The notes under the pieces are model-generated. The model had not been told where the DNA came from. It saw nothing but the letters and a program-made list of their open reading frames with translations, and searched no databases. Below, in pieces: positions 1 to 16,913 of a stretch of DNA of 58,410 bases (positions within the stretch are counted from its first letter, which is position 1; each line of letters begins with the position of its first letter). The position numbers and the translations under genes are program-made. Source of the stretch: an archaeon (GTDB lineage Archaea > AGJL01 > Methanococci > Methanococcales > Methanocaldococcaceae); contig JAJRSC010000016.1 in assembly GCA_024278985.1 (NCBI GenBank), forward strand, positions 1-58,410, in the 5' to 3' direction.

Positions 1-2552
1 TTCTTAAAGCTAGTGGTGTTCCTGTAGTATAGTAGTATGTAGTTGTTTCTTCTGGTAATTCTGTTGCTAATGTTATTGTTACGATAGGATCTTTAACTAA
101 TGTTATTTCCAAAATACCATTTTCATAGATATACCATCCTACTTTACTAGTTATGTCATTTTCTTTTAGTGTTATATTATCTGTACCATTATTTATTGTT
201 ATATTTTTAATATTAAAGTCACCTATAGGAATAACTATTATAGCAAATCCTTTATCTGTAGTATTTGTAACATTTAACCTTATTTCTGAAATAACTTCAT
301 TATTATTTATTTCTGTTTTTACTTCTTTTTTTGTAATATTAAATCCAACTGATATAAGTGGTTTAATACTCTCATTAATTTCTTTAATTACATTGTTGAT
401 GTCATCTTTATTTTTTATAGTTATATATTTTGCTTTTTGTTTTGTTTCATTTAATATTTCAATAACTGTTTTATTAATAGATATATTATTTCCAATAATT
501 GGAATACTTATTTTATCTCCAGTATTAAGGGTTAATATAGTAATATTATACTCATCACCAATAATAAAATCTATATTGTTAATATTATTTTCTATATCAT
601 TGTTAATATTTACATAGTTTTTAATAAACTCTAAATTAACCATTTTATTATCTATATAAACCTTTAAAAATTTGTATCCATATATATCTGATAATACAAC
701 ATTTTTTATTATTGCAGAGTAAGTATTGTTAGTTGTATTAAAGGTAATCTCTGCTAATTCAAAATCTCCAGTTTTTGAAAGATTATATCCACTTATAAAT
801 AATGTATTGTTAGATACATTCCAATAATAAGTACCTATTGCTGTAACATTTAAGACTGATAAATTTTTTAATGAAATGTATATATCATACCCACCTAATG
901 CTCTTTCTCTATTAATTCCACAAACTTCTATTTTTGCTTTTATAATTCCATTATTATCTGAAACTTTATACATTTTTAATAATACTGGAGTTTCAACGAC
1001 TTTAACAGTTTTAACAACTTTGTTATCAGATTCATTTTCTTCTTTAATATTATTTAGAGTATCTGCAACTACAACAATAGTATATGTATTTAACTCATTT
1101 GGTGTCCAATTAAAACTTATAGTTTTTGACTCACCAACATTTAATGAATTTATTATAACACTTCCAAGTTTTTCAGTATTTACATAAACACTGACATCAA
1201 AAGGTTCTTTTATATCTTGATGTCCATTATTTATTATAGTTACATTTATAGGATTATTTACTCTATATATTGCAGGATTATTAACATCTACTTTTAAAAT
1301 TTTAATATTTGGTCCTTCAACTGTAACAATTGCTGGATTTATATAAATTTTATTAAATTTGTAACCATTAGCATCAGATACTTTAATATCTGCTAAGTTA
1401 ATCTCGGAACTACCTATATTTACTGCCTTAAATGTAGCTCTTGCAATTATTGTTGGAGTAGTTATATTTCCATCTAATATACTAAAGATTACTTTTCCAT
1501 TTTCAAAGGTTATATTTTCTAAACCTTCAGATGCATTTATTAAAAACTCAAATTTTGTACAATTTAATATCTCAGGATTATATGTTAAGATTCCATCAAT
1601 CCCTTTAGCAGGTCTTTTATCAGTAATATTATCTAATTTAATATCCACTGTAAATGTATCATTTATTTTTACTAATGTTGATGATGGAATTAATTTTATT
1701 TGTATTGGTTCTTCAATTGCACATAAGGTTTTAACATCCTTATTATTACTTTCATTATATTCTATTATAAGATTATCTGGATCCACTACTGCAACTACTG
1801 TATAATTTCTTTCTTCAGTAGGTATAAATGTAAAGTTTATTTCTTTAGATTCATTAACTTTAAGACCATTAATTACTTTTGTTCCAAGTTTTTCAGTATC
1901 TACAAATACACTAACAGTAATATTATTTGTTATATCACTTTCTCCAACATTTTTTACTAATACTGGAATTATGTTATCTTCATACGCTTTTAGAGTAGTT
2001 TGAACGACATTTACAGTTAAATCATAGGGGGAAAGTATTTTTACATTTGAATTTCTCACAACTAAGTTATTCTTATCTACTTTCCATGTGTAGTCTCCAC
2101 CAGAGTTAGATATTACAGTTCCACTTAAGGATATTGATGTATTATCTGAAGGTTTTAATGCTTTAAACTTTAAAGTTGCTATTGTAAAGTTTCCATAAGG
2201 ATAGTTATTAAACCATGACAAGCTAATATATACTCTTCCATTTTCAACAGAAATATTCTTAAGATTTGCACTATTAGCAATATCACTTAAAACAATATCA
2301 TTTTCAGTTATGTTTAATAAACTTGAATTAAAGTATATATATGTTTCAAATCCACCACAATATCCAGAATAGTTATTATAACCATCTGATATTGTTCCAT
2401 TTGGGACATTTTTTACTTCTAAAGTTAAGTTAAAACTTTGTCCCATCTTTACTACAACATTTGATGGAACTAATTCTACTGTTACATTTTCTCCATAAAC
2501 TCCAATAAAGGATATCATTAAAATTGATAATAATATCAACTTCCACTTCATT
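1..2552 (-). CDS. Secreted cohesin/CARDB-domain surface protein (3' end beyond window)
   Basis: About 850 residues are visible and the frame is open to the left edge, so the C-terminus is missing. The ATG at 2552 follows a GGTGA ribosome site. Residues 1-20 are a signal peptide. Three cohesin-like beta-sandwich regions (about 22-165, 278-405, 515-640) alternate with CARDB-like segments (about 170-270 and 410-512) that end in the typical 'N-N-G/D' and 'T-V-V-D' strands. Many N-x-S/T sites suggest glycosylation. The first cohesin is very similar to that of the protein at 12571-14604 (shared core SANLK..S.ENG...S..WFNNYP). It is probably a cell-surface scaffold; the neighbouring gene encodes a dockerin protein, its likely partner. 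Cohesin assignment is from sequence pattern; the partner is inferred. Confidence 0.8.
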
Positions 2553-2662
2553 ACTATTCACCATTTTAAAGATTTTGATTTTAATTAAGTAGAATAATAT
2601 AAAAATATTACTTTTTATTTTTTTGTTATTAAAATAGTAATTAAAAATTAAAGTAAGGATAG

Positions 2663-4036
2663 TTATCCTGCAGTATATGGTACTGCTGTATTATTATCAG
2701 GATAATATCTTAAGAAATAGTGTGTAGTTCTACCTTTAAATACTTCTGGATGAATTATTGTTCCTAAATCCCATAAAACATCATCAGTGTTCAACAATCC
2801 CAGTTGCCAGTAGTCATCACTTATACAGAATAACCTACCGTTTTGTACTGCTTTGAAGTACTCATATCCTGGGTGGTCTTCTTTGAATGTTGATAACCAC
2901 TCTGTACTTGATGGTACTACCCATATATCTGCATTCTTAGCTCTTTCTGCAAAGGTTTCATAACTTATACATGCACTTCCAGTTCCTGGAATATCTTTAA
3001 ATATGTAATCTCCATGACAATCTTCCATTATCGCCTTAGCAACGTATGACTGTGCTTTTGGAACATAAGTTCCTCCAAAACTTGGATAATTTTTACCCCA
3101 TGCTACTAATGGTCTGTCTGTATTTCTTGTTAATCTTCTAACATCTAATGATCTCTTTACTATTCTTGTAAAGTATTTTTTTGCAACATCTTCCTTGTTG
3201 TAAAATGCTGCAAACAACTTTACCCATTCACATCTAGCAAGATAGGAATCTTCTAAGTATTCTGCATCAGCGACATAAGTTAAGTTCAACTCTTTACATT
3301 TTTCAATTACTGCGTCTCCACTATATCCTGGATAGACAAATATAACTTGTGGTGAGATATTAAGGATTAAATCATAGTTTGGATTGTATGTTGAACCAAC
3401 ATCAATTATTGAACCATTTTCTAGACCTTCCTCAATATTTTTAAAGTACCACTTATATTGTTTACCCCACATTATTCCTTTTACTGAAGCAATTACTGAA
3501 CCATCATTATTTATCGCTTCCATTAAAGCTATTTCTGTAGAACTCATTACAACAACTCTTTTTAAAGGAACATTAATTACTTTATCATATTTTCCTTTAG
3601 CCCATGAAGGAATTGGTTCAGTTTCATTTTTTAATAAAAATCTTTGTCCAGTAGCATCTACTACTATTTTATATGCATATGGTTCTCCATTATAGGGATT
3701 TACTTCAATACCATTTTTATCGTAGTAGGTTATCTTTATATTTTTAGCGTAGACGATAGGTTCTCTTAATTTTTGATAATTATCAAAGAGATAGACCACA
3801 TCTGCAATATCAATTGAACCATCTGCATTTATATCCCCATCTTCCAAACTAAGGTTTCTATGTTTGAAAAGATAGACTACATCTGCAATATTAATTGAAC
3901 CATCTCCATTTACATCTCCGAACCTATGGTTATAGTCTCCTGGAGTAATATCTTTCCATGTTAATGCATTTACATCTGAATATATAGGTATAAATATTAA
4001 AAAAGCTATAGCTATATACCAAATATTTTTTATCAT
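2663..4036 (-). CDS. Dockerin-fused periplasmic-type substrate-binding protein (corrinoid/metal-chelate family)
   Basis: 457 residues. I start at the ATG at 4036, seven bases from a GGTGAT site; an ATG 12 bases upstream lies inside that site. Residues 1-24 form a Sec signal peptide with no lipobox cysteine. Residues about 30-90 are a type I dockerin with two calcium loops, DVNGDGSINIAD and DINADGSIDIAD, each followed by an Asp-Val-Val-Tyr-Leu-Phe helix. From about residue 150 it matches the PF01497 fold (FhuD/BtuF-like: V-V-V-M-S-S-T near the start of the first lobe, then a long linking helix and second lobe). No permease or ATPase gene is nearby. No C-terminal membrane segment is seen, so the dockerin is the only visible tether. 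Ligand is unknown; the cobN/cbiZ context suggests a corrinoid or other tetrapyrrole. Confidence 0.9.
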   Translation of the reverse strand: MIKNIWYIAIAFLIFIPIYSDVNALTWKDITPGDYNHRFGDVNGDGSINIADVVYLFKHRNLSLEDGDINADGSIDIADVVYLFDNYQKLREPIVYAKNIKITYYDKNGIEVNPYNGEPYAYKIVVDATGQRFLLKNETEPIPSWAKGKYDKVINVPLKRVVVMSSTEIALMEAINNDGSVIASVKGIMWGKQYKWYFKNIEEGLENGSIIDVGSTYNPNYDLILNISPQVIFVYPGYSGDAVIEKCKELNLTYVADAEYLEDSYLARCEWVKLFAAFYNKEDVAKKYFTRIVKRSLDVRRLTRNTDRPLVAWGKNYPSFGGTYVPKAQSYVAKAIMEDCHGDYIFKDIPGTGSACISYETFAERAKNADIWVVPSSTEWLSTFKEDHPGYEYFKAVQNGRLFCISDDYWQLGLLNTDDVLWDLGTIIHPEVFKGRTTHYFLRYYPDNNTAVPYTAG

Positions 4037-4120
4037 TAATATCACCATTTGGAATTTTAAATATTTAAAATTAATACTGTAAAGATATTATGTCATAAAT
4101 TATATTTTAAAGGATTACAA

Positions 4121-4150
4121 TAAAACTATATAAAATAAAACTATATAAAA
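4121..4150 (-). promoter_or_regulatory. Tandem 15-bp TATA-containing repeat upstream of the dockerin gene
   Basis: TAAAACTATATAAAA occurs twice head to tail at 4121-4135 and 4136-4150. Each copy contains a TATATA core that can serve as a TATA box on either strand. It sits about 85-115 bases upstream of the dockerin gene. Promoter role is inferred. Confidence 0.4.
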
Positions 4151-4229
4151 TTTATGGTAAACTTTATTATTAATAAAATAATCTTTAAAATATAAAAATA
4201 TATTATTTGCTTTTAAATCATAAATTTTA

Positions 4230-4664
4230 TTATTTTATTTTTTCTATTCTATTTTCTGGGAAAATTATAGCATTGTTCTCACAACACATATAGGAACAGG
4301 CATTGCAGTTAATTATACAGTTATATGGATATTTAACAATAACTCTACCATTTTCTATATCATAAACACCTTTAGGGCAAAATTCAACACATTTCTTACA
4401 ATTTTTGCATTTTTCATAATTTATCTTTGGGAACCATGGGATTTCTTTCCTCTTCTTCCCATTAAATTCCTCATACTCTATTTCCATAACTGCATCATAA
4501 AGCGTTTTATATAATCTTTTATTTGGTTCTCTAACAAGTTTTGTGACTTCTTCATAAGTATTATATATTTCATCCATTCCCAATTCTTTTGAGAGTTTTT
4601 TAATCTCCAAATTTAAAATCATAAATTTTCTAATTTTCTTTAGTAGTTCTTTTTTCTTTTCCAT
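4230..4664 (-). CDS. 2[4Fe-4S] ferredoxin-like protein
   Basis: 144 residues. The N-terminal ~70 residues are helical and charged. The C-terminal half has one classical cluster motif (CKNCKKCVEFCP, CX2CX2CX3CP) and a second with altered spacing (CIINCNACSYMC, CX3CX2CX3C). The same altered spacing and the preceding 'W-F/Y-P-K-I-N-Y' occur in the ferredoxin at 19949-20323, so the two are paralogues. It is divergent from cobN with a 144-bp gap, so both may be fired from one promoter region. A role as electron donor to the nearby radical SAM enzyme or chelatase is an inference. Confidence 0.85.
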   Translation of the reverse strand: MEKKKELLKKIRKFMILNLEIKKLSKELGMDEIYNTYEEVTKLVREPNKRLYKTLYDAVMEIEYEEFNGKKRKEIPWFPKINYEKCKNCKKCVEFCPKGVYDIENGRVIVKYPYNCIINCNACSYMCCENNAIIFPENRIEKIK

Positions 4665-4753
4665 CTTTTCACATTATTTAAGTTTTAAAAGTCATAAAAA
4701 AATCTACAAAAATTTTAATTATGTACCATGGATGATATATTAATATTAGTTGA

Positions 4754-4767
4754 AACTTTATAAATAT
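4754..4767 (+). promoter_or_regulatory. Probable TATA box for cobN transcript
   Basis: GAAACTTTATAAATA (BRE-like purines followed by TTTATAAATA) ends about 43 bases before the cobN ATG. Spacing allows a start site near 4790 and a short leader holding the GGTGA site at 4798-4802. Confidence 0.5.
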
Positions 4768-4808
4768 TAATTGAAAATTTTTTAATTTAATTTTAATGGT
4801 GAAAATTA

Positions 4809-7800
4809 ATGATAAAAATAGGGTTTGTTTCTACAGTAGATAGTGATGATTTGGTTTTTGAAGAGGCATATAAAGAAGTAAAAAAGTATGGAATTGAATT
4901 TAAAATTTTGGATTATAAATGTAACGAGAAAGAGTTTAAAGATTTTTTAGAGTTTATTAAAGATGCTAACATTGTATTTACAAAACTTATGGTAGGAAAA
5001 AAAGCCTTTAAATACTTTGATGAATTAAAAGCATTTGTTGATAAACGTAATATTCCATTTCTTCCACTCCCTACATTAAATGAAGTTCATCCAGATTTGG
5101 ATGATGCTACAACTGTAAGTGAGGAAGTTAAATTAAAGGTTATCAAATATTTGGGATATGAAGGAATTGAAAATTATAAAAATCTCTTATTATATTTAGC
5201 AAATAAATTTGGAGATAAAAATATTCCTTATAAAGAACCAAAGCCCATGCCATGGCAAGGAATTTATTATAAAGGAAAATACTTTGAAACCTTAAATAAC
5301 TATTTAAATTATTTAAAAAAAATTGATAAAAAAATAGATGGAAAACCAATTATTGGAATTTTATTTTACAGAAATTGGTTTATTGCAAATAATATTGATT
5401 ATCTTAACGATTTAATTAATGTTATTGAGAATAAAGGAGCAATACCTGTTGCTGTCTTCACATCACATTTAAAAAATGAATTGGGGGCTATTGGGACATT
5501 AGAAGTGTTTAAAAAATTTTTTTATAAAGATGGCAAACCATTTATTCATACTTTAATAAACACAACTATGTTTACCTTATCTATGGGAGTTAAGGCAGAT
5601 ATCCTAAAAGATGAACCTGAATTTTTAAAAGAGTTAAATGTCCCAATCTTGCAGGGAATTATAAGTACTGGATTTATTGAAGATTGGGAAAAATCAATAT
5701 CTGGAATAAATCCAATTGATTTAGTTATAGGAATGGCAATGCCAGAATTTGATGGAGCAATAATACATTTCCCAATAGGTGGAAAGAAAAAGGTTAAGGA
5801 TGGAGATGTTGGAGTTCCAATTATAAAATATAAAGCAATAAAAGATAGAACTGAGAAAATAGTTAATTTAGCATTGAAATATGCAGATTTAAAGTTAAAA
5901 CCAAACAAAGAGAAAAGAATTGCAATAATTTTCCATAACTATCCACCAAGGAATGATAAAATAGCAAGTGCTTTTGGATTAGATAGTCCTGAAAGTGTTG
6001 TCAATATATTAAAAAAGTTAAAAAATAGAGGTTTTATAGTCGATGAAATTCCAAAAAATGGAACTGAACTAATTAAAAAAATGTTAAATTATGCAACAAA
6101 TGATAAGAGATTTTTAACTGAAGAGATGATAAAAAAAGCTGTAGGAAAAATAAAAAAAGAAGATTATGAGAAATGGTTTAATTCTCTCTCTAATAAAGTT
6201 AAAGAAGAATTAATTAAAAATTGGGGGGAAATTCCAGGAGAAGTTATGAATTTTGATAATAACTTAATTATTCCAGGAATAATTAATGGAAATGTTTTTA
6301 TCTCAGTTCAACCACCAAGGGGCTTTGGGGAAAATCCTTCCGCCATTTATCATTCTCCAGATATGCCACCTACTCATTACTACATTGCTTTTTATAAATG
6401 GATTAAAGAAGTTTTTAAAGCAGATGCTATAATGCATATAGGAAAACATGGAAGTTTAGAATGGTTGCCAGGAAAAGGTGCAGGTTTATCAAGAGATTGC
6501 TATCCAGATATTTGTATGGAATTGCCAAACATCTATCCATATATTGTAAATAATCCTGGAGAAGGAACTCAAGCAAAGAGAAGAAGTTATGCAACAATTA
6601 TAAGCCATTTAATTCCACCAATGACAATATCTGAGTTGTATGGAGATTTAGAAGAATTAGAAAAGAATATTGATGAATACTATGAAACTGAAAATAAAGA
6701 AAAGAAAGAGTTTTTAAAGAAAGAAATTTTGAATAAAATTAAAGAATTAAAGCTGAATGAGGACTTGATGGATGGGAAAGTTATAGATGAGGAAATTAGT
6801 GAAAAAAACTTTGATAAATTGTTAAATAAAATCCATGATTATTTAGAGGAATTAAAAAATAGGCAGATAAATGAAGGATTGCATATAATGGGAGAACCTT
6901 TGGAAGAGGAGAAGTTAATTAATATGATATTTATGATTATCAGATATCAGTTTAACTACTTGGAGATTCTATCTAAAATTTTAGGGTATGATTGGAATAA
7001 ATTAAATGAAGAAAAAGGAAAAAAACATAAAATTATTGATAAAATAAATAAAATTGGAATAAATCTAATAAAAGAATATATGAAATATAATTTTGATGAA
7101 AATAAAATTGAGGAATTAAAAACCATAAAACCTAATTCTGAACTAAAAGAAGTTTTAAAAATTATATCAAAAATATATAGAAATTTAATGATGGTAAATG
7201 AAGAGATTGAAAATGCAGTAAATGCCTTAGAAGGAAAATATGTTCCTCCAAAAATAGCAGGAGCACCAACAAAAGATATAAACTGCCTCCCGACAGGAAG
7301 AAACTTCTATTCTTGCAACCCTCAAGAAATACCAACAAAATCTGCTTATGAAATGGGAAAGAAATTAGCTAATGATTTAATTAATAAGTATTTAAAAGAA
7401 GAGGGAAAGTATCCTGAGTATATTGGAATTATTGTCTGGGGTTCTCCTACAATGAGAACAAAGGGAGATGATATTGGGGAGATTTTATATTTATTAGGGG
7501 TTAAACCAGTTTGGAATAAGATGGGGAGAGTTGTTGGTTTAGAAGTCATACCATTAGAAGAGTTAGGAAGGCCAAGAATTGATGTAACTTTAAGAATTAG
7601 TGGTTTATTTAGGGATACTTTTCCACAAGTTATTGATTTAATAGATGAGGCAATAAAAATGGTTGCAAACTTAGATGAGCCAGATGACCTAAATTTTGTT
7701 AAAAAACATTACAAGCAGGAAGTTATGGAAAAAATAAAGAAAGGAATTGATGAAAAAACAGCAAGAGAAACATCTCTATATAGAATATTTGGATGTAAAC

Positions 7801-8498
7801 CTGGATGTTATGGAGCTGGAGTTGCAGATTTATTAACTGAGAAAAATTGGAAATCATTGGAGGATTTGGCAAAGGTTTATGTTGAATGGGGAGGTTATGT
7901 TTATGGAAAAGGAATTCATGGTATTGAGGCAAAGGAAGAATTTATTAAAAGGTTATCAAAGATTGAGCTAACTGTTAAAAATGAAGATAGCCAAGAATGG
8001 GACATTTTTGAGGGAGATGATTTCAATAGTTATCATGGTGGGATGATTGCAGCTGTAACTTTCTACTCTGGTAAGCAACCAAAAAGTTATATTGGAGATA
8101 CTTCAAATCCAAATAAGATAAAAACAAAACATTTGAAAGAGGAAGGAAAGCAGATATTTAGAACAAAAATAATGAATCCAAAGTGGATTGAAGGGTTGAA
8201 GAAGCATGGCTATAAGGGGGCAAGTGATTTCTCAAAGTATATTGACCATATCTTTCAATGGGATGCAACCTCAAATATAATAGATGACTGGATGTATCAA
8301 AAAATTGCTGAAAATTATGTTTTTGATAAAGAAATGGAAGAGTTCTTTAAAGAAAACAATCCTTATGCCTTATTAAACATAACTGAAAGGTTATTAGAAG
8401 CTATAGAAAGGGGAATGTGGAAGACAGATGAAGAAACAAAAGAAAAGTTAAGAAAAAAATACTTAGAAATTGAGGGAATGATAGAAGAGAAATTATAA
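4809..8498 (+). CDS. cobN: CobN/ChlH-type cobaltochelatase large subunit
   Basis: 1229 residues, the usual size for CobN/BchH. Family blocks are visible: PPRGFGENPSAIYHSPD, MHIGKHGSLEWLPGKG, the PNIYPYIVNNPGEGTQAKRR block, and near the C-terminus CKPGCYGAG and FQWDATSNIIDDW. CobN inserts cobalt into hydrogenobyrinate diamide in aerobes with CobS/CobT; in anaerobic archaea, which insert cobalt early with CbiX/CbiK, the role of CobN homologues is unsettled. HmuS, a bacterial CobN relative, removes iron from haem, so dechelation is a possibility here. No AAA+/MIDAS partner lies in the window. It is followed 26 bp later by the radical SAM gene, probably one operon through cbiZ. Confidence 0.9.
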   Translation: MIKIGFVSTVDSDDLVFEEAYKEVKKYGIEFKILDYKCNEKEFKDFLEFIKDANIVFTKLMVGKKAFKYFDELKAFVDKRNIPFLPLPTLNEVHPDLDDATTVSEEVKLKVIKYLGYEGIENYKNLLLYLANKFGDKNIPYKEPKPMPWQGIYYKGKYFETLNNYLNYLKKIDKKIDGKPIIGILFYRNWFIANNIDYLNDLINVIENKGAIPVAVFTSHLKNELGAIGTLEVFKKFFYKDGKPFIHTLINTTMFTLSMGVKADILKDEPEFLKELNVPILQGIISTGFIEDWEKSISGINPIDLVIGMAMPEFDGAIIHFPIGGKKKVKDGDVGVPIIKYKAIKDRTEKIVNLALKYADLKLKPNKEKRIAIIFHNYPPRNDKIASAFGLDSPESVVNILKKLKNRGFIVDEIPKNGTELIKKMLNYATNDKRFLTEEMIKKAVGKIKKEDYEKWFNSLSNKVKEELIKNWGEIPGEVMNFDNNLIIPGIINGNVFISVQPPRGFGENPSAIYHSPDMPPTHYYIAFYKWIKEVFKADAIMHIGKHGSLEWLPGKGAGLSRDCYPDICMELPNIYPYIVNNPGEGTQAKRRSYATIISHLIPPMTISELYGDLEELEKNIDEYYETENKEKKEFLKKEILNKIKELKLNEDLMDGKVIDEEISEKNFDKLLNKIHDYLEELKNRQINEGLHIMGEPLEEEKLINMIFMIIRYQFNYLEILSKILGYDWNKLNEEKGKKHKIIDKINKIGINLIKEYMKYNFDENKIEELKTIKPNSELKEVLKIISKIYRNLMMVNEEIENAVNALEGKYVPPKIAGAPTKDINCLPTGRNFYSCNPQEIPTKSAYEMGKKLANDLINKYLKEEGKYPEYIGIIVWGSPTMRTKGDDIGEILYLLGVKPVWNKMGRVVGLEVIPLEELGRPRIDVTLRISGLFRDTFPQVIDLIDEAIKMVANLDEPDDLNFVKKHYKQEVMEKIKKGIDEKTARETSLYRIFGCKPGCYGAGVADLLTEKNWKSLEDLAKVYVEWGGYVYGKGIHGIEAKEEFIKRLSKIELTVKNEDSQEWDIFEGDDFNSYHGGMIAAVTFYSGKQPKSYIGDTSNPNKIKTKHLKEEGKQIFRTKIMNPKWIEGLKKHGYKGASDFSKYIDHIFQWDATSNIIDDWMYQKIAENYVFDKEMEEFFKENNPYALLNITERLLEAIERGMWKTDEETKEKLRKKYLEIEGMIEEKL

Positions 8499-8524
8499 AC
8501 TATTATAATTATAGTTGTGAAATT

Positions 8525-9385
8525 ATGAAATATCTCATTTTAAAAATAACAAATAGATGTAATTTAAACTGTGTTTATTGTTATGCAATTAATAAAAATA
8601 ACAGAGATATGGATTTTGAAACAGCAAAGAATGCCATTGATTATATTTTAAAAATGGATGATAAGTTAAAAATTCAATTTACTGGTGGAGAACCACTTTT
8701 AAATTTTGATTTGATTAAAAAAATAATAGATTATTGCAATGAAAACTATTCCAATAAATATATTTCCTATGCAATACAAACAAATGGAACCCTACTAAAT
8801 GAAAAAATTATTAAAAAAATTAAAAATTTAAATATAAAAATTGGTATTAGTATAGATGGTTTGGAGGTAAATGATAAGCTAAGACCCTACAAAAACAAAA
8901 ATCCTTCAACAATAGATACATTAAAAGGAATATATCTTTTAAAAGAATATAATATTCCTTTTGGTGTAACAATAGTTGTAACAAATAAAAATTTACCATA
9001 TATAAAAGAATTTGTTGAATATTTAATGGCTTTAGGTATTAAAAGCATAAGTTTTGATTTATTAAAACCAAAGAGAAAAGAACATTTAAAACTATTGCCT
9101 GATAAAGATGAATTTAATAAAATTTTAAATGAATTAAAGAATTATCCAATATATATTAAAAATATAGTAAGAAATGAAAAGTTAAAATATTATAAAAAAT
9201 ACTGCTTTTTAAATACTGGAGATTTACTCTTTGTTAATGAATATGGAGACATTTTTCCCTGTCCAACATTGGAAGGATATTTTTATATAGGAAATATAAA
9301 TAAATCTAATAAAAAAAATTTAAAATTATTTAAAGTTGATTGTAGTTATTGTTTTGCAAGAAAATATTTAATGAATCAATTTTAA
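8525..9385 (+). CDS. Radical SAM protein with C-terminal SPASM-like cysteines
   Basis: 286 residues; ATG preceded by GTGA. The radical SAM motif CNLNCVYC lies at residues 13-20 and the SAM-binding GGEP at about 57-60. C-terminal cysteines (K-Y-C-F-L, F-P-C-P, D-C-S-Y-C-F-A) suggest an auxiliary SPASM/twitch Fe-S cluster, common in peptide- and cofactor-modifying enzymes. It is 26 bp after cobN and 10 bp before the TIM-barrel gene. Substrate is unknown. No small precursor peptide gene is seen in the operon, so I do not call it a peptide maturase. Confidence 0.8.
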   Translation: MKYLILKITNRCNLNCVYCYAINKNNRDMDFETAKNAIDYILKMDDKLKIQFTGGEPLLNFDLIKKIIDYCNENYSNKYISYAIQTNGTLLNEKIIKKIKNLNIKIGISIDGLEVNDKLRPYKNKNPSTIDTLKGIYLLKEYNIPFGVTIVVTNKNLPYIKEFVEYLMALGIKSISFDLLKPKRKEHLKLLPDKDEFNKILNELKNYPIYIKNIVRNEKLKYYKKYCFLNTGDLLFVNEYGDIFPCPTLEGYFYIGNINKSNKKNLKLFKVDCSYCFARKYLMNQF

Positions 9386-9395
9386 GGGATAAACA

Positions 9396-10145
9396 ATGAT
9401 TGGAGTTTCAACAAGCATATTTTTAAATTCTAATAAAAAGTTAGAAAATGCTCTTTCCTTTTTAGAGAATAAAACAAAATATGTAGAACTTATTTGTGAT
9501 GGATACTTAAATGTTATGGAACATACTGAAATTCCTCTATCATACAATTTAAAATATACATTACATTGTCCTCTTACAGATATGAACCTATCATCTTTTA
9601 GAGAGAAAGTTAGAAAAACAAGTATAGAGATTGTTGAAGATATTTTAAAAGTTGCTGATGTTGTTAATGCCTCTTTAATTGTACTACATCCAGGATATTG
9701 TGTATTTAAAGAGGACTATTTAAAGGCATTAAATTCTCTAAAAAAATCTTTATATGAATTAAATAAACTTCAAAATGAATATTCTATACAAATAACAATA
9801 GAGAATATGCCATCCTATAGTATGTTTATGTTTAGAGAACCAAATGAAATTATTGATACTTTAGGAGATATTGGAATAACTTTTGATATTGGCCATTCTT
9901 TTTTAAATAAAAATATTGAAAAATTTTTAGATAATAACCTTATAAAAAAAATTTATCACATTCATATCCATGATAACAATGGAGTATTTGATGAACATCT
10001 ATGTATAGGAAAGGGCAAGATTGAATTTGATAAATATAAAAAGAAGTTAAAAAAAATAAATTGTATAAAAATGATAGAAATGCAGTATAAAAGTATTGAT
10101 GATTTAGATTTATGTATTGATAGAGTTAAAAGATTGTTCAGATAA
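9396..10145 (+). CDS. TIM-barrel protein, xylose isomerase/AP endonuclease 2 family
   Basis: 249 residues. Family landmarks are L-H-C-P-L near residue 50, L-I-V-L-H-P-G-Y at ~90, I-T-I-E-N-M-P at ~131, T-F-D-I-G-H at ~160 and I-H-I-H-D-N-N-G at ~188, ending in G-K-G-K-I-E. These His/Glu/Asp positions form the usual divalent-metal site of sugar-phosphate isomerases, epimerases and endonuclease IV relatives. The reaction cannot be assigned. Position between the radical SAM gene and cbiZ suggests a role in the same cofactor pathway, for example on a nucleotide-loop or sugar-phosphate moiety (inference). Confidence 0.75.
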   Translation: MIGVSTSIFLNSNKKLENALSFLENKTKYVELICDGYLNVMEHTEIPLSYNLKYTLHCPLTDMNLSSFREKVRKTSIEIVEDILKVADVVNASLIVLHPGYCVFKEDYLKALNSLKKSLYELNKLQNEYSIQITIENMPSYSMFMFREPNEIIDTLGDIGITFDIGHSFLNKNIEKFLDNNLIKKIYHIHIHDNNGVFDEHLCIGKGKIEFDKYKKKLKKINCIKMIEMQYKSIDDLDLCIDRVKRLFR

Positions 10146-10149
10146 TAAA

Positions 10150-10187
10150 TTTCTTTTTATACAATTTAAGATTATTATAAAAAGAAA
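10150..10187 (+). promoter_or_regulatory. Perfect 12-bp inverted repeat just upstream of the cbiZ ribosome site
   Basis: TTTCTTTTTATA (10150-10161) and TATAAAAAGAAA (10176-10187) are perfect reverse complements around a 14-base loop. The second arm is 8 bases before the AGGTGA site of cbiZ. It could be an RNA hairpin controlling cbiZ translation, an operator over a TATA box, or an intercistronic terminator. Not classifiable from sequence alone. Confidence 0.5.
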
Positions 10188-10205
10188 CTCTTTTAGGTGA
10201 TCAAA

Positions 10206-10982
10206 TTGGAGGATGTTTTAAAAATGGATGATTGGAGAGCATATAAAATTTCCCATACTGTTGAAATTAATGGAGATATTGAAAAAACAAAAACCTTAAT
10301 AATAGAGTTTGAAAAAAGAAGAAAAGTTTTATCAACAAGAGAAGGTTTTAAGATAGTTAAATATGTTGGTAACCATTCAATCCCTGTACTATTTTGGGAT
10401 AAGGTTCATAATTATAAGGATTATGAAGACCATGTCTTAAAGAAAATTGGAATTAAAAAAGAGGATATTGCTTTATTATCAACTGGAGCTGATATGGATA
10501 ATTTAGCAGTTGCTAAAGAAGAATTTGATGAGTTTTATACAATTGCTTTTACAACTGCAGGAGCAAAGTATAATGCTGTTAGATTAGGAGATGAAGAAAC
10601 AGATTATATTGAAAAGGATTTCAAAACATACAAAATTGAAAATGGAAAATTAATTCCTAAAGAAGAAGTAGGAACAGTTAATATTATTTTAATAACTAAT
10701 GCAAACTTAACTGATGGAGCAATGGCAAGAGCAATTATAACTATAACTGAGGCAAAAACAAATGCTTTTCAAGAGTTGGATATAAGAAGTACTAAACATC
10801 CAGAACTTCAAGCTACAGGGACAGGAACTGATAATATTATTATTGTTAAAGGTTTTGGTAGATGTGTTAATTATACTGGAGGACATACAAAGATTGGTGA
10901 AATGATAGCGAAATGTGTTAAAAAATCCGTTATAGAGGCATTAATAAAGCAAGACAATATAAAAATTAATAAAAATTTTTAA
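10206..10982 (+). CDS. cbiZ: Adenosylcobinamide amidohydrolase
   Basis: About 258 residues. CbiZ cleaves the aminopropanol side chain of adenosylcobinamide or pseudo-cobalamin to give adenosylcobyric acid, the archaeal route for salvaging and remodelling foreign corrinoids. Diagnostic blocks are present: LLSTGADMDNLAVA, the TDGAMARAIITITEAKTNAFQ region, QATGTGTDN and the C-terminal G-G-H-T-K-I-G-E. I choose TTG at 10206, five bases after AGGTGA; a GTG at 10197 overlaps that site and an ATG at 10224 lies further inside. It closes the cobN gene group and is the clearest evidence that the locus concerns corrinoids. Confidence 0.9.
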   Translation: MEDVLKMDDWRAYKISHTVEINGDIEKTKTLIIEFEKRRKVLSTREGFKIVKYVGNHSIPVLFWDKVHNYKDYEDHVLKKIGIKKEDIALLSTGADMDNLAVAKEEFDEFYTIAFTTAGAKYNAVRLGDEETDYIEKDFKTYKIENGKLIPKEEVGTVNIILITNANLTDGAMARAIITITEAKTNAFQELDIRSTKHPELQATGTGTDNIIIVKGFGRCVNYTGGHTKIGEMIAKCVKKSVIEALIKQDNIKINKNF

Positions 10983-11175
10983 TTAAATAATAATGTAATA
11001 TAGCAAATATTTAAGTGATAAAATATAATTATAAAAATTATTAAGTAAGTTTATCATTTTATTCATTATGTATTAAGATAAAAAATAGTAAATAATATAT
11101 ACTATTTTTTTAATTATTTTTAAGTTATAATAAATATTTTTAATAATAATAAAATAACATTTAATAGGGGTAAGT

Positions 11176-11712
11176 ATGAAAAAAAAATTAATTCTATTGT
11201 TAGTTCTTATGTTTCAAATATGTTTTGCAGTTGATATATCAGTAAATGCTCCTTCAAAAGTTCAGCAAGGAGAAATTTTTACATTAGAAGTTTATGCTAA
11301 AAATGTATCAAATTGTGGAGGATTTGAATGTGATTTATATGTTTCAAATAATTTAAAAATATTAAATGTTACATCCTACAATGTTGGAGCAGATTACAAT
11401 TTAACAATAAATAAAAATAGTTTTGCAGCAATACAGTATGCTTTTTTGACAAATCCAAAGAATGAGGACTTTAAAGTTGGAGAATTTAAAATAAAAGCTC
11501 TAAAGAGTGGCAATGCAACAATAGTAGTTAAAGCTGTTGCCTCAGATAGTGAAGGAAATGCAATTAAAATTCCAGAGAAAGTTATAAATCTTAAAGTTGA
11601 AAGTAATCAAGTAAATGAAGAAAAAAAAGAAACAGGTTTTTCTTTTAATATTGTAGTGGTTATATTTGCAATTATTTTAGTTGGTATATTGATATATATG
11701 ATTAGAAAGTGA
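11176..11712 (+). CDS. Membrane-anchored single cohesin-domain protein
   Basis: 178 residues: signal peptide 1-19 (cleavage near C-F-A/V-D), one cohesin-like domain at about 20-145 (V-Q-Q-G-E-I-F-T-L-E-V ... G-G-F-E-C-D-L-Y ... V-G-E-F-K-I-K-A), a short charged linker, and a C-terminal transmembrane helix at about 156-175 ending in I-R-K. This arrangement shows the cohesin outside the cell, held by the helix. First of three such genes with gaps of 6 and 15 bp, so one operon. It is the simplest candidate receptor for the dockerin protein at 2663-4036; that pairing is inferred. Confidence 0.8.
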   Translation: MKKKLILLLVLMFQICFAVDISVNAPSKVQQGEIFTLEVYAKNVSNCGGFECDLYVSNNLKILNVTSYNVGADYNLTINKNSFAAIQYAFLTNPKNEDFKVGEFKIKALKSGNATIVVKAVASDSEGNAIKIPEKVINLKVESNQVNEEKKETGFSFNIVVVIFAIILVGILIYMIRK

Positions 11713-11718
11713 TTAACT

Positions 11719-12555
11719 ATGTATAGATATATAATTTATTTTTTAATTCCAATGTTTATATTGTTAAATGTTGTTTATAGTGAAGATATCTATGTTAGAT
11801 TAATTCCTGAAGAAGTAGTATCTGAAGGAAATATAATTAAATTTAATATATCTATTGAGAACATTCCAAAGGTCGGTGATATTAAATATTATGATGGGAC
11901 GGAGGATGGAGGTTGTAAAGGAGTTGATATTTATATTAACTATTCTCCTGATTATTTAAAACCTTATGGGTTTAACTGGAGTGATATTTGTAAAAATGAA
12001 AAAATAAAATCATACGAATTTAAAAATGGTACATTTGTATTAAGTATCTTATTTAATAAACCTATTGAAGAAAATTTCTACATTGGGGAAATTATGTTTA
12101 TTCCTACTAAAAAAGGTGAGACATATGTTAATATATCTGGAGTTATTAGTTCAGCTTTAGGAATAAAATATGATGGTATTCAAGACTATTATGATTATTA
12201 TACAAAAACATTTAAAAAGTATCCTAAAACCAAATTTTTTGGAGCAAAGGTTATTATAAAAGAAATTAATGAGACTAATTTAACAAATACAAGTTTAAAA
12301 CTAAGTGAAACTATAGAAGAGAAAAATTTTGAGAATATCAAATCAACATCAACTTCTAACATAATTAATAGAATCTATATAAATCCACAAGTAAGAAAAC
12401 CAGAAGTTATTGTTAAAGAAATAAATATAACTGAGTATAGGCCAATAGTAAAAATAATTGTAAATAAAAAAAATGATTATGACATATCAAATTTATTTTT
12501 TGGAATAATTTTAGGAATTATATTTGGATTTATTTTTTCAAAATTTAAGAAATAA
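11719..12555 (+). CDS. Membrane-anchored cohesin-like surface protein
   Basis: 278 residues. Signal peptide 1-21, a cohesin-like region at about 22-175 (opening D-I-Y-V-R-L-I-P-E-E-V-V-S-E-G, later Y-I-G-E-I-M-F-I-P), a Thr/Ser/Asn-rich linker, and a C-terminal transmembrane helix near 256-274 followed by Lys/Phe residues. It is 6 bp downstream of the previous cohesin gene. The cohesin match is weaker than in its neighbours, and the insertion near residues 52-75 containing two cysteines is unusual. Role as scaffold or receptor is inferred. Confidence 0.7.
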   Translation: MYRYIIYFLIPMFILLNVVYSEDIYVRLIPEEVVSEGNIIKFNISIENIPKVGDIKYYDGTEDGGCKGVDIYINYSPDYLKPYGFNWSDICKNEKIKSYEFKNGTFVLSILFNKPIEENFYIGEIMFIPTKKGETYVNISGVISSALGIKYDGIQDYYDYYTKTFKKYPKTKFFGAKVIIKEINETNLTNTSLKLSETIEEKNFENIKSTSTSNIINRIYINPQVRKPEVIVKEINITEYRPIVKIIVNKKNDYDISNLFFGIILGIIFGFIFSKFKK

Positions 12556-12570
12556 AATTAGGGATAATTA

Positions 12571-14604
12571 ATGAAATTAAAGATAAAAGTAAAGATTTTA
12601 ATATTAATTTTATTTTTAGTATTACAAATAAATTTTGGAATTAATGTTTTATTAATTCCCAATAATATCAGTGTAAAAGAATATGATTCTTTTAATATAA
12701 CATTAATTGTAAATACTAACGAACAATTAGGAGGATTTGAGGATATTATTTATATTCCTGATGGGTTAAATATAACTAAAGATGATATCATTTTAAGTGA
12801 TACTGCTAATAGTGCAAATCTTAAGGATGTCTCTATAGAAAATGGTAAAATAGATATTAGTTTAGTATGGTTTAATAATTATCCATCTGGAAACTTTACT
12901 ATTGCAACACTTAAATTTAAAACATTAAATAATGGGACATATAAAATAATTCAAAGTCCTACTTTATCAGATACAAATGGTAATGAAATAAAAAATGTAT
13001 CCTATAATTCAGTTGTAGTAAATATTATTGGGTTAAATTCAACTATTGTAGATATAATTCCTATAAATCCAACAATAAATAATAGTTTTGATGTTCTTGT
13101 TTCAATAAAAAATGCAAAAGAAAATATTTACAATATTAGTGGAAGTATCTACTATCCAAATTTAAAAATTGTAAATTTAGATTTTTATTATTTTGAGGAT
13201 AATATTACTAATGTTAATTTGTGGTATAATAATGATAGTTTAAGTTTTTTTGTTAAATTAAATACCTCAAAAGATATATTTAACTTAATGAAATTAACAT
13301 TTTTTACAAGTAAAGAAGGTAGTTATATTATTAACGCAACTATAAAAATAAATGGAAAAAATGTAATTGTAAATCCTGCATGTTTTACACTTGGAAATAT
13401 AACTGTTGAAAAATATGTAGGTTTTCCAATAAACGAAAAAAATATTTCTTATGGAGATAGTGGATTTATATATATTAAGGCAGAAAATATTGATTCGAAT
13501 ATATCAGAAATTAGAGGGAATATATCATATAACTCAACATTATTGAATGTTAGTGATATATCTACAAGTTTACAAACTCTTGAAAAAAATTTGTCTATTA
13601 AAAATAATACTATTAATTTTTATATTAAAATAAATGGAAGTGTAAGTAATAATTTTAATATATTATCTTTTTGGATAAGACCACTTATAAATAGGAATAT
13701 AACAACAGAACTTAAGATTTTAAATATATCTTTATTAGATATAAATGGAAGTAATGTAAATGTTCCAGTAAAGGATAGTTTAATTATCCATATAATTCCC
13801 AAAAATCTTACAGAAAATATTTCAAATATAAATAATACACCACCAAAGGTATATTTCGTATTTGAAGTTATTGACGATTATACTGTGAAATTTTATTCTT
13901 TATGTTATGATAAAGAAAATAATACTCTGTACTATTATTGGAATTTTGGAGATAACACTACATCAACAGATATAAATCCAACTCATACATATAAAAAAGA
14001 TGGACTTTATATTGTTAAGTTATATGTTAATGACTCATTTGGAGCTATTGGATATGATGAATGTTTAATTAATATAAAAAAATTAAATCCAATAAATATT
14101 ACACTTAGCAACACTACAATATATCCAACTAATCATAACATAACAATATATTGTAATATAACTTTAAAAAATCCTTTTTCTAAAAGGATTTATGGAGATA
14201 TTCAGTTTTTAGATTATGCTAATTATAAACCAAACAAAACATGTATAACTTTTGAATTATTACCTAATGAAACAAAAGTATTTTCAGTTCCTATAAATAT
14301 CTCAGGTCCTACAGAGATAAAGGGATATGTTGAATATTATATTCCAAATAAAAGAGTAATTAAATATGTTTGGAATTTTAAAAAAGATATTAATGTCTTA
14401 AAGATAAATAAGATAAGTTATAGAGATTACTATTATAATATTTCACTTAACCAATCAAAAGTTATTATAAAAATTAATAAAATTTTAAAAAATTATACTA
14501 TTACAAAAAATATAGATATTGAAAATAATAATCTAAGTATTTTAATGTATTTAATAGGGTTTTTAATTGGCTTTTTAATAATTTATAAAAAGAAAAAATT
14601 TTAA
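12571..14604 (+). CDS. Membrane-anchored multi-cohesin protein with PKD domain
   Basis: 677 residues. Signal peptide 1-23; cohesin-like regions at about 24-150, 155-280 and 285-412; a PKD domain at about 424-506 (Y-Y-W-N-F-G-D-N-T ... P-T-H-T-Y ... G-L-Y-I-V-K-L-Y-V); a beta domain to about 600; and a C-terminal helix at about 655-672 followed by K-K-K-K-F. Rich in N-x-S/T sites. The first cohesin closely resembles the first cohesin of the protein at 1-2552. Several cohesins in one chain would let it hold several dockerin partners, as in a scaffoldin. Last gene of the cohesin operon. Confidence 0.8.
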   Translation: MKLKIKVKILILILFLVLQINFGINVLLIPNNISVKEYDSFNITLIVNTNEQLGGFEDIIYIPDGLNITKDDIILSDTANSANLKDVSIENGKIDISLVWFNNYPSGNFTIATLKFKTLNNGTYKIIQSPTLSDTNGNEIKNVSYNSVVVNIIGLNSTIVDIIPINPTINNSFDVLVSIKNAKENIYNISGSIYYPNLKIVNLDFYYFEDNITNVNLWYNNDSLSFFVKLNTSKDIFNLMKLTFFTSKEGSYIINATIKINGKNVIVNPACFTLGNITVEKYVGFPINEKNISYGDSGFIYIKAENIDSNISEIRGNISYNSTLLNVSDISTSLQTLEKNLSIKNNTINFYIKINGSVSNNFNILSFWIRPLINRNITTELKILNISLLDINGSNVNVPVKDSLIIHIIPKNLTENISNINNTPPKVYFVFEVIDDYTVKFYSLCYDKENNTLYYYWNFGDNTTSTDINPTHTYKKDGLYIVKLYVNDSFGAIGYDECLINIKKLNPINITLSNTTIYPTNHNITIYCNITLKNPFSKRIYGDIQFLDYANYKPNKTCITFELLPNETKVFSVPINISGPTEIKGYVEYYIPNKRVIKYVWNFKKDINVLKINKISYRDYYYNISLNQSKVIIKINKILKNYTITKNIDIENNNLSILMYLIGFLIGFLIIYKKKKF

Positions 14605-14660
14605 TTAACTGACTTTTTCCACCATTTTTATTTTCATAATACTGATAATAATATTAATTA

Positions 14661-14684
14661 TCTGATAGTGTGAATCGAAATTAT
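14661..14684 (+). repeat. 22-bp sequence shared with the transposase remnant at 49074-49095
   Basis: CTGATAGTGTGAATCGAAAT and the following bases match 21 of 22 positions of the minus strand at 49074-49095, which lies at the edge of a decayed transposase frame. The 169-bp gap here (14605-14773) between two convergent genes holds no gene; it is probably a small insertion-sequence relic. Confidence 0.4.
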
Positions 14685-14773
14685 AGATTATAAAACCAAA
14701 AAATAAAATAGCATCAAGATGAAATACGTAAATAAAAAACGATAATCAACATAATAATATGAGCAAAAATTTT

Positions 14774-15826
14774 TTATTTTTTATCTAAATTTTCTGAATA
14801 TATTGTCCATAATGCTATTAATGCTGCAGGTATTGCATGCTCTGTTGCAAAGGTCATTTTAGGGGATAAGTCTATAATATAATCTGCAAATCTAAATAAA
14901 CCCCTTGGTATTCCTTCTCTTGACCCACAGAAAATAATAATTTCTCTCTTACCCTTTAAATCTTTAGATAATTTATCTTTAATTTTCCCTAATTCTTCCC
15001 CTTTTGGGTCAGTTATTATTAATAATCTGTTTTTTCTTCTTTTATCTCTAATAACTTGATATAAATCCTGAACACTTACCTTAACCTTTCTAATATCAAA
15101 AGGATATGCTCTTTTTTGTATTTCATACCTTGAATTTTGTCCTATTTTAACACCTTTTATAAACTCCTCTAATTCATAAGCATCTACTTTTTCTTTTGGA
15201 GCAATTATCAACTCCTTAATTTCAAATGCTTGGGCACTTCTTCCAATAGCTTCCCCAAATTTTCTACAAACCTTTTTTTCTCCTAAATATGGAAGTTGAA
15301 CAACTATAACTCTCCTAAATAACTTTCTGGCATTCTCTTTTTCCTCAGAGTATTTTTTATTTTTAAACTCATCCTTTCCTTCAATGCAAATATATGCCTT
15401 ATCTTTAAAAATCTCCACATAAACAACCTTATCAGGATTATTTAAATCTACTTTAGCATTTGTTAAATCTTTTATCTTAGCCCCTAAAACCTTGTTTATA
15501 TCTATTGAATTATAGTCCTTTTCTCCTCTTTTTATTGTTTCAACTGCATATTTATCATTTTCATTAATATAATCTTTTATTTTTTCAGCCATATTAACAA
15601 TGGAATCAAAGTCAGCAGATGTTTCAAAATCTACCTTTAAAACTCTCTCAACTTCTGGGATACTTAATATTTTATCTCTTATATCTTTACTACTTTCAAC
15701 TATAACAACACCATGAAAACCATCTGGAGAAGGAATTGCTTTAAACTCATCTTTAACTAATGTTTTTAAATGATTTATAACTATATTTTCAAATCCCTTT
15801 TGTGTTTTTATTATAAACTTTATCAT
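14774..15826 (-). CDS. THUMP-domain RNA-binding protein with SPOUT-like C-terminal half
   Basis: 350 residues. The ATG at 15826 is chosen because GGTGA lies just upstream; an ATG 12 bases earlier overlaps that site. The N-terminal ~150 residues have the THUMP pattern (F-I-I-K-T-Q-K-G-F-E; I-P-E-V-E-R-V; A-V-E-T-I-K-R-G). The C-terminal part (I-I-F-C-G-S-R-E-G-I-P-R-G at ~300, then F-A-T-E-H-A-I-P-A-A-L) resembles SPOUT/DUF knotted-fold methyltransferases of the COG1818 type. Probably acts on tRNA or rRNA; target unknown. The start lies inside the end of the upstream polymerase-like gene, so the two are translationally linked. Confidence 0.65.
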   Translation of the reverse strand: MIKFIIKTQKGFENIVINHLKTLVKDEFKAIPSPDGFHGVVIVESSKDIRDKILSIPEVERVLKVDFETSADFDSIVNMAEKIKDYINENDKYAVETIKRGEKDYNSIDINKVLGAKIKDLTNAKVDLNNPDKVVYVEIFKDKAYICIEGKDEFKNKKYSEEKENARKLFRRVIVVQLPYLGEKKVCRKFGEAIGRSAQAFEIKELIIAPKEKVDAYELEEFIKGVKIGQNSRYEIQKRAYPFDIRKVKVSVQDLYQVIRDKRRKNRLLIITDPKGEELGKIKDKLSKDLKGKREIIIFCGSREGIPRGLFRFADYIIDLSPKMTFATEHAIPAALIALWTIYSENLDKK

Positions 15827-16913
15827 CAATCTCACCATTTGCTGTTAGCATTAATATTAACACTACCAAAAAACCAAAATTTATACCAATTTCACAATAT
15901 CCTAATAATAAAGCAGAGTATATTGCATAAATTTTTCTATCTCCTTCATACAATATTTTAGATGCTAAGCCTATTAAAAAAGCTATAACCACTCCAAAAA
16001 GATTAAAATCCATATAGACTGTTCCAAACATTGTAGTTGTATAATTAACATTTTTATTAAATAATAACTCTCCTATTAATCTTTCACCATTAGGGGTAAA
16101 TAATATTTTACCATATGTTATAATCCCACTTTCAACTATTTTTTTAAAAACATATAAATCAAAATATGCTCTATAAGATAAAAATTCATAAAAATTTATC
16201 TTCCAATTTTGAGGAGAAAAATAAACAATAGTCCAACCCATAATATTAAGAACAATAAATAATAAGATAATATAAATAAAAAGATTTCTCTTAATTTTTT
16301 TATAGACAATATAACTAACAACTAACAATAATATTCCAACTTTATAACCCATAAGGGTTAAAAGTATAAATGATATTATAACCCTATATTTACTCTCTAA
16401 ACTACCATATATTAAACCACCCATAGATATTAATCTTAATGGTTCTGTATTAATGGCCATTCTTACATTGTAGTCAAAAAGAGGAATTGCATGATATTTA
16501 ATAATTAATAATATAAAGGACATTAAACCAATATAAAACATAAAATCTGTGAATATTTTTTTGTCCCTTAGTTTTTTATATAATTTAATAACTACAAATA
16601 AAAATATTAAATAAATCAAAGATAAAAATATTGAGTTTGTAGAATAATATGCCCCATAAAAAGAAAATATAAAAAGAAGTCCATATAAAATATATTTATT
16701 TATTTTAATATTTTTAATTATAAAAAAAGGTAAAGTAAAACTTAAAATAAAGATACTTACAATAATAAATAGTTTTAATATAGTTAAATATACTAACCTA
16801 TAATAATATGGGACTGCTAATAAAAATATTGCCAAATATCCAAAAATAACAATAATATAAGGAGAAAAAATATCTATTTCTTTAATTTTTTCCTTAATAA
16901 GATTATTAAACAT
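15789..16913 (-). CDS. Polytopic membrane protein, oligosaccharide repeat-unit polymerase-like (copy B)
   Basis: 374 residues, about ten or more transmembrane segments separated by short loops, and one larger outside loop at ~225-310 (Y-G-K-I-L-F-T-P-N-G-E-R-L-I-G-E-L-L-F). This hydropathy and the final V-Y-M-D-F-N-L-F-G segment resemble Wzy/O-antigen polymerases of the archaeal repeat-unit family. It starts 40 bases inside the end of copy A and its own end overlaps the THUMP gene by 38 bases. A role in polymerising a surface glycan is probable but rests on topology more than on motifs. Confidence 0.6.
   Translation of the reverse strand: MFNNLIKEKIKEIDIFSPYIIVIFGYLAIFLLAVPYYYRLVYLTILKLFIIVSIFILSFTLPFFIIKNIKINKYILYGLLFIFSFYGAYYSTNSIFLSLIYLIFLFVVIKLYKKLRDKKIFTDFMFYIGLMSFILLIIKYHAIPLFDYNVRMAINTEPLRLISMGGLIYGSLESKYRVIISFILLTLMGYKVGILLLVVSYIVYKKIKRNLFIYIILLFIVLNIMGWTIVYFSPQNWKINFYEFLSYRAYFDLYVFKKIVESGIITYGKILFTPNGERLIGELLFNKNVNYTTTMFGTVYMDFNLFGVVIAFLIGLASKILYEGDRKIYAIYSALLLGYCEIGINFGFLVVLILMLTANGEIDDKVYNKNTKGI

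Follow-up and report, generated by a model that had tools for sequence, protein, structure and literature searches.

Introduction

Archaea have for years been known to possess cohesin and dockerin modules that are not part of cellulosomes, and what these modules do there has been unclear. Here I describe a locus on contig C18 (58,410 nucleotides, hereafter the window) of the 1.1-Mb draft genome of a member of the Methanococcales (G000), in which cohesin proteins are encoded together with a dockerin-bearing solute-binding protein (SBP). The hosts are heat-loving, methane-making archaea, and SBPs of a vitamin B12-type importer appear to be held at their cell surface by a cohesin-dockerin clip.

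The nearest likeness is found in anaerobic methanotrophic (ANME) archaea, whose genomes encode both dockerin-bearing SBPs of ATP-binding cassette (ABC) importers, of the NikA/OppA and TroA types, and multi-cohesin, scaffoldin-like proteins, and for which surface attachment has been suggested (PLoS Biol 2022, PMC9012536). Binding between archaeal cohesin and dockerin modules has been verified, according to that paper. A first-pass annotation of the window had taken the tethering of transport SBPs by dockerins to be undescribed, which the ANME case contradicts. In ANME, however, these SBPs figure among varied dockerin proteins with no clear pairing (PMC9012536), whereas here the candidate clients in the genome itself are two BtuF-type SBPs linked to cohesin genes, and dockerin and lipobox are exchanged between related species.

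Cellulosomes share with this locus a type I-like dockerin, the cohesin fold, a multi-cohesin scaffold and a link to the surface layer (S-layer), but here the cargo consists of transport SBPs and the S-layer link is through PF05124 instead of surface layer homology (SLH) modules. No enzymes or carbohydrate-binding modules were found in the system: the dockerins of the genome are on SBPs, and the scaffold holds cohesin, CARDB and S_layer_C domains only. The BtuCDF importer with CbiZ and CbiR, two enzymes that remodel cobamides (PMC7733943), is paralleled by an SBP, a FecCD permease pair, an ATPase, CbiZ and a CbiR-like TIM barrel, with relatives beside cobalamin riboswitches; what differs is the tether, the second SBP and the presence of CobN, ferredoxin and radical SAM genes in the locus. 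The hmu operon of Bacteroidota likewise sets a FecCD-type ABC importer beside a CobN-family gene, that of HmuS, which removes iron from haem (PMC12583661, where archaeal CobN homologues are termed unexplained). Unlike hmu, the present system has CbiZ/CbiR company and relatives beside cobalamin riboswitches, which favour a corrinoid over haem, and no outer-membrane receptor. It is probable that the locus specifies a cohesin-dockerin attachment system whose clients are two SBPs of a FecCD/BtuCD-type importer, most likely for corrinoids.

Results

Dockerins reside on two binding proteins

The genes of the attachment system in the window are as follows.

2-2551, minus strand: predicted S-layer scaffoldin, 5' 850 codons, with a signal peptide and three cohesin modules alternating with CARDB; continues on contig C5
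2057-2467, 1328-1684 and 638-931, minus strand: the cohesin modules of this protein (family profile)
2663-4048, minus strand: SBP-A (DocBP), with a signal peptide, a dockerin and a BtuF/FepB-type solute-binding domain, PF01497
3773-3922, minus strand: dockerin module of SBP-A; both calcium loops canonical, PF00404 matched by Pfam at 3794-3919
11176-11712, plus strand: coh178, with a signal peptide, one cohesin and a C-terminal membrane helix
11719-12555, plus strand: coh278, secreted, with one divergent cohesin and a C-terminal membrane helix
12571-14604, plus strand: cohPKD, with an N-terminal cohesin, a PKD domain and a C-terminal membrane helix

The fusion of a dockerin to a binding protein, proposed from the first reading, was borne out: SBP-A matches PF01497 (E 3.7e-20), and its dockerin matches PF00404 with 20.6 bits in the Pfam scan and 23.0 bits, above the cut-off, in the genome search. 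Both calcium loops are canonical in 38 of the 38 dockerins compared, SBP-A included, and the dockerin sequences match solved dockerins in PDB. That reading knew of SBP-A alone, but the system would in fact serve two SBPs. The second, SBP-B, is encoded elsewhere in the genome, on its own contig C28 (L053:9285-10604), unlinked to SBP-A, and the cores of the two proteins are ~30% identical. Two FecCD permease genes adjoin SBP-B in the same genome, an ATPase gene is nearby in relatives, and L054 holds a full importer set, with a cluster III SBP (PF01497), two PF01032 and PF00005.

All the dockerins found in G000, G001, G005, G006 and G012 are on SBP-A or SBP-B. Outside the SBPs, dockerin-like stretches turned up in a phosphatase-like protein (G022 and others) and a PKD protein (G023); they gave poor scores against the SBP dockerin profile and were discounted. 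At L221:4966-6486 a secreted phosphatase-like protein bears a C-terminal dockerin-like EF-hand repeat, weak against the same profile. An SBP paralogue lacking a signal peptide, which may be cytosolic, occurs in genomes without dockerins (L216:818-1798, L217:653-1654, also G008:C33 and G011:C111).

Cohesins and dockerins co-occur

The survey covered 36 Methanococcales genomes, and extending the search to the whole phylum brought in no others. Two drafts in which the SBP lacks its N-terminus, G026 (where a coh178 fragment is present) and G027, were left out, so that 34 genomes were judged. Cohesins and dockerin-SBPs are both present in 24 of these and both absent from nine; one genome (G014) has a dockerin only and none has a cohesin only. 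Partners are thus found in the same genome, with concordance in 33 of the 34 (Fisher p 2e-7, kinship ignored). By profile search of the 36 genomes, no cohesins were detected in G002, G004, G007, G008, G011, G013, G014, G015, G016 and G024, and dockerins are absent from the same ten except G014; M. jannaschii, the named control, matches neither family. On the rpoB tree the cohesin changed four times and the dockerin five, and in independent pairs the dockerin went the same way or stayed static, never the opposite way. Independent occurrence of the two modules, and of both from cobN/cbiZ, had been named as what would speak against the proposal: in the genomes judged, with G014 as the exception, cohesin and dockerin do not occur independently, while their tie to cobN/cbiZ is common but looser.

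G001 (L056) lies by rpoB among the genomes with lipobox SBPs, yet its dockerin SBPs cluster with those of G003 and G035; on these trees, the whole locus may have passed from one lineage to another as a unit.

A lipobox takes the place of the dockerin

In G002, G004, G007, G008 and G013 both SBPs carry a lipobox-type signal (e.g. ..MLSGCVNS, ..AFAGCVEE) in the dockerin's place. Conversely, the dockerin-bearing SBP-A and SBP-B have no lipobox cysteine after the signal peptide and so are not of the archaeal lipoprotein type. With the dockerin excluded, a tree of the cores groups the lipobox versions of SBP-A into a single clade and those of SBP-B into another, the latter nested among dockerin SBPs. 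A third, unlinked SBP has a lipobox-type cysteine at the same place (read in nine dockerin genomes), which indicates that lipid anchoring is not missing in dockerin genomes. None of 69 relatives outside the Methanococcales shows the dockerin motif, and 44 of them match a loosely drawn pattern for lipobox-like sequences. Since the lipobox replaces the dockerin in genomes that lack cohesins while the third SBP keeps its lipobox, the dockerin most likely stands in for a lipid anchor.

Homogenisation of the dockerin modules

The dockerin DNA of SBP-A and that of SBP-B are 97-99% identical in G012, G023 and G033 and 90% identical in G022, over a tract of ~150 bp. Identity drops sharply at the borders of the module, the rest of the two genes being 54-62% identical in DNA. 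This pattern suggests that in some lineages gene conversion has occurred and has been maintained because the two dockerins share a binding partner.

Cohesin proteins and their anchors

Because the Pfam models for cohesins and dockerins are not sensitive enough on their own for these proteins, profiles built from the families themselves were used besides them. The 2-2551 protein is the sole one in the window to reach the cut-off of PF00963 (24.4 bits), coh178 scoring under it (20.1 bits). The four secreted cohesin proteins that had been proposed were recovered by the family profile, which finds six modules genome-wide: the 2-2551 protein has three and each plus-strand protein has one. That of coh278 was detected with E 9.4e-13 although it was not in the profile's training set. 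A predicted model of coh178 (mean pLDDT, the predicted local distance difference test, 79.7) has the cohesin fold, its best PDB matches being the cohesins 2jh2, 2vo8 and A. fulgidus 2xdh (E 7.5e-9 to 2e-7).

All three plus-strand proteins end in a hydrophobic helix, as the first reading had it. The 2-2551 gene was seen to be cut by the contig end. Positions 1-26 of the window are an exact 26-bp overlap with the right end of contig C5 of the same genome (L259), which joins the two contigs and supplies the missing 153 residues. The completed protein of ~1003 aa terminates in the Methanococcales S-layer domain PF05124, and in complete homologues the cohesins, CARDB domains and PF05124 are arranged in the same way. 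On this domain evidence, one of the cohesin proteins is predicted to be an S-layer scaffoldin.

The membrane helix of coh178 is a feature of the window's genus: in L058, L063, L066, L085, L086 and L089 the protein ends in a short amphipathic-looking stretch (..NFLKSILGG) and has no membrane helix.

Gene order and the cobN block

The remaining genes of the locus, all at the positions first assigned to them, lie between SBP-A and coh178.

4230-4664, minus strand: 144-aa ferredoxin-type protein (4Fe-4S); in relatives usually divergent from cobN
4809-8498, plus strand: CobN/ChlH-family chelatase subunit
8525-9385, plus strand: radical SAM protein; such genes also recur in bacterial operons
9396-10145, plus strand: AP-endonuclease-2-type TIM barrel, CbiR-like; nearest NCBIfam model CbiR, below cut-off
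10197-10982, plus strand: CbiZ, adenosylcobinamide amidohydrolase family

The TIM barrel is indeed present and closest to CbiR, yet it falls under the cut-off of the CbiR equivalog model (54 vs 105 bits). A search of window positions 1-16000 against Rfam gave no RNA family of interest, one sub-threshold match to mir-70 being due to chance.

Relatives of both families conserve the order cohPKD-coh278-coh178 followed divergently by DocBP-scaffold. Cohesin genes had been described as flanking the cobN-cbiZ set, which holds in the window's genome only: there the ferredoxin-cobN-radical SAM-CbiR-cbiZ block sits inside the cohesin/DocBP unit, whereas in other genomes DocBP directly adjoins the cohesin genes and the block lies near but outside, a link that is common but looser.

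Two further observations concern these neighbourhoods. At L074:3250-6293, and at the same place in G018 and G020, two nitrogenase component 1-type genes (PF00148), possibly encoding a tetrapyrrole reductase, stand between cobN and cbiZ. At L069:5319-6272 and similar sites a Gate-domain (PF07670) membrane protein adjoins the lipobox SBP clusters.

The probable ligand

Relatives of the SBPs with FecCD, ATPase, CbiZ, ChlI/ChlD, CobN or radical SAM genes were found in Lutispora, Alkalibacter, Treponema and Coriobacteriia, and the same gene company recurs at SBP relatives in metagenome-assembled genomes of an actinomycete, a deltaproteobacterium and a member of the Methanomicrobiaceae. A cobalamin riboswitch (RF00174) scored above the gathering threshold at 12 of the 24 relative loci searched:

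L104, L107, L108, L111, L113, L122, L123, L131, L137, L145, L150 and L167: RF00174

At L137 and L167 the riboswitch shares the strand of the cluster and immediately precedes it, and at L111, L113 and L145 it adjoins the SBP on the opposite strand. Because distant bacterial relatives adjoin CbiZ, CobN and ChlID genes and cobalamin riboswitches, a corrinoid is the likely ligand.

An alternative keeps the anchoring as described and changes the cargo, which would be some other tetrapyrrole or metal chelate (haem, F430 products or a siderophore); CobN would then work as a de-chelatase in the manner of HmuS from Bacteroides. PDB sequence and fold searches with the SBP did not discriminate the ligand, the SBP fold being as close to haem and siderophore binders, and the CobN family does include a haem de-chelatase encoded beside an importer (PMC12583661). 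I nevertheless consider this alternative unlikely, given the CbiZ and CbiR-like genes in the locus, the CbiZ genes in the relatives' operons and the riboswitches at half the loci searched.

Discussion

The preferred reading, attachment of corrinoid-binding proteins by cohesins, can be set out as follows. SBP-A and SBP-B would be secreted without a lipid anchor, and their N-terminal dockerins would be held by the cohesins of three membrane-anchored proteins and of a multi-cohesin scaffoldin with an S-layer domain. Several SBP copies would thereby be kept between S-layer and membrane, where they would bind a corrinoid and hand it to the permease. Inside the cell, the nucleotide loop would be cut by CbiZ together with the CbiR-like enzyme, and the target of CobN and its partners, the ferredoxin and the radical SAM protein, would be the tetrapyrrole or its metal, in whichever direction that chemistry may run. 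The first-pass annotation had proposed in essence that envelope cohesins hold dockerin SBPs that capture corrinoids for CobN and CbiZ. Its main line is upheld by the co-occurrence, the exchange of anchors and the lipobox control, and further by the cohesin fold, the ABC importer genes nearby and the riboswitches beside relatives. Placement of all the cohesins on the membrane was abandoned, one being carried by the scaffoldin. A more tentative extension, which I hold as possible but somewhat doubtful, is a nutrient-capture array, in which the S-layer scaffoldin would hold corrinoid-binding proteins at the outer face and the membrane cohesins others beside the permease, the cofactor being handed across the gap and the clip serving as a reversible substitute for a lipid anchor.

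Several observations weigh against the corrinoid-capture reading. G014, a single-contig genome, has an intact dockerin on SBP-B (L081:10052-11323) and no detectable cohesin, and with 3-4 independent changes to count, a sign test lacks power (p 0.25-0.5). Homogenisation is clear in only four of 14 genomes; in the other ten the genome's own pair is no closer than the best orthologue, and in G000 the two own dockerins resemble each other as closely as they do foreign ones (81 vs 82%). The SBP fold fails to discriminate B12, haem and siderophore binders, the riboswitch-bearing relatives are just ~25-35% identical, and the riboswitch search had no matched control set. Finally, CobN would not be strictly needed, because in G003 (L055:10677-14766) frameshifts break up cobN and the radical SAM gene (80-92% protein identity) and leave the CbiR-like, cbiZ, SBP and cohesin genes intact; the split genes are either recent pseudogenes or sequencing errors.

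A different possibility is that dockerin-cohesin binding is mainly structural, cross-linking S-layer and membrane or mediating cell-cell adhesion, with the SBPs as incidental passengers. Six cohesin modules on four proteins for two known clients would suit such a role, as would the PKD and CARDB domains and the S-layer domain of the scaffold. It seems quite improbable all the same, since the SBPs turn to lipoboxes exactly where cohesins are missing, G015, G016 and G024, which are without these SBPs, are also without cohesins, and G005 and G006 retain the SBPs plus coh178, the sole cohesin protein found in them. It is very improbable that the EF-hand repeats do not work as dockerins and that the cohesin-like domains have another role, their co-occurrence reflecting linkage and shared cassette transfer: Pfam scores close to the cut-off and a locus that seems to move as a block, as in G001, would fit this, but the calcium loops are canonical throughout, solved dockerins and the cohesin fold are matched, and the unlinked SBP-B changes along with SBP-A.

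Attachment of the two SBPs by cohesins would give one archaeal cohesin-dockerin system clients that are defined and a ligand that is probable, with the species whose SBPs have lipid tails as a natural control. It suggests a purpose for an archaeal cohesin-dockerin system, so that a long-standing question becomes testable, points to a way of anchoring an SBP in a cell with an S-layer, and places the unexplained CobN homologues of archaea in a context.

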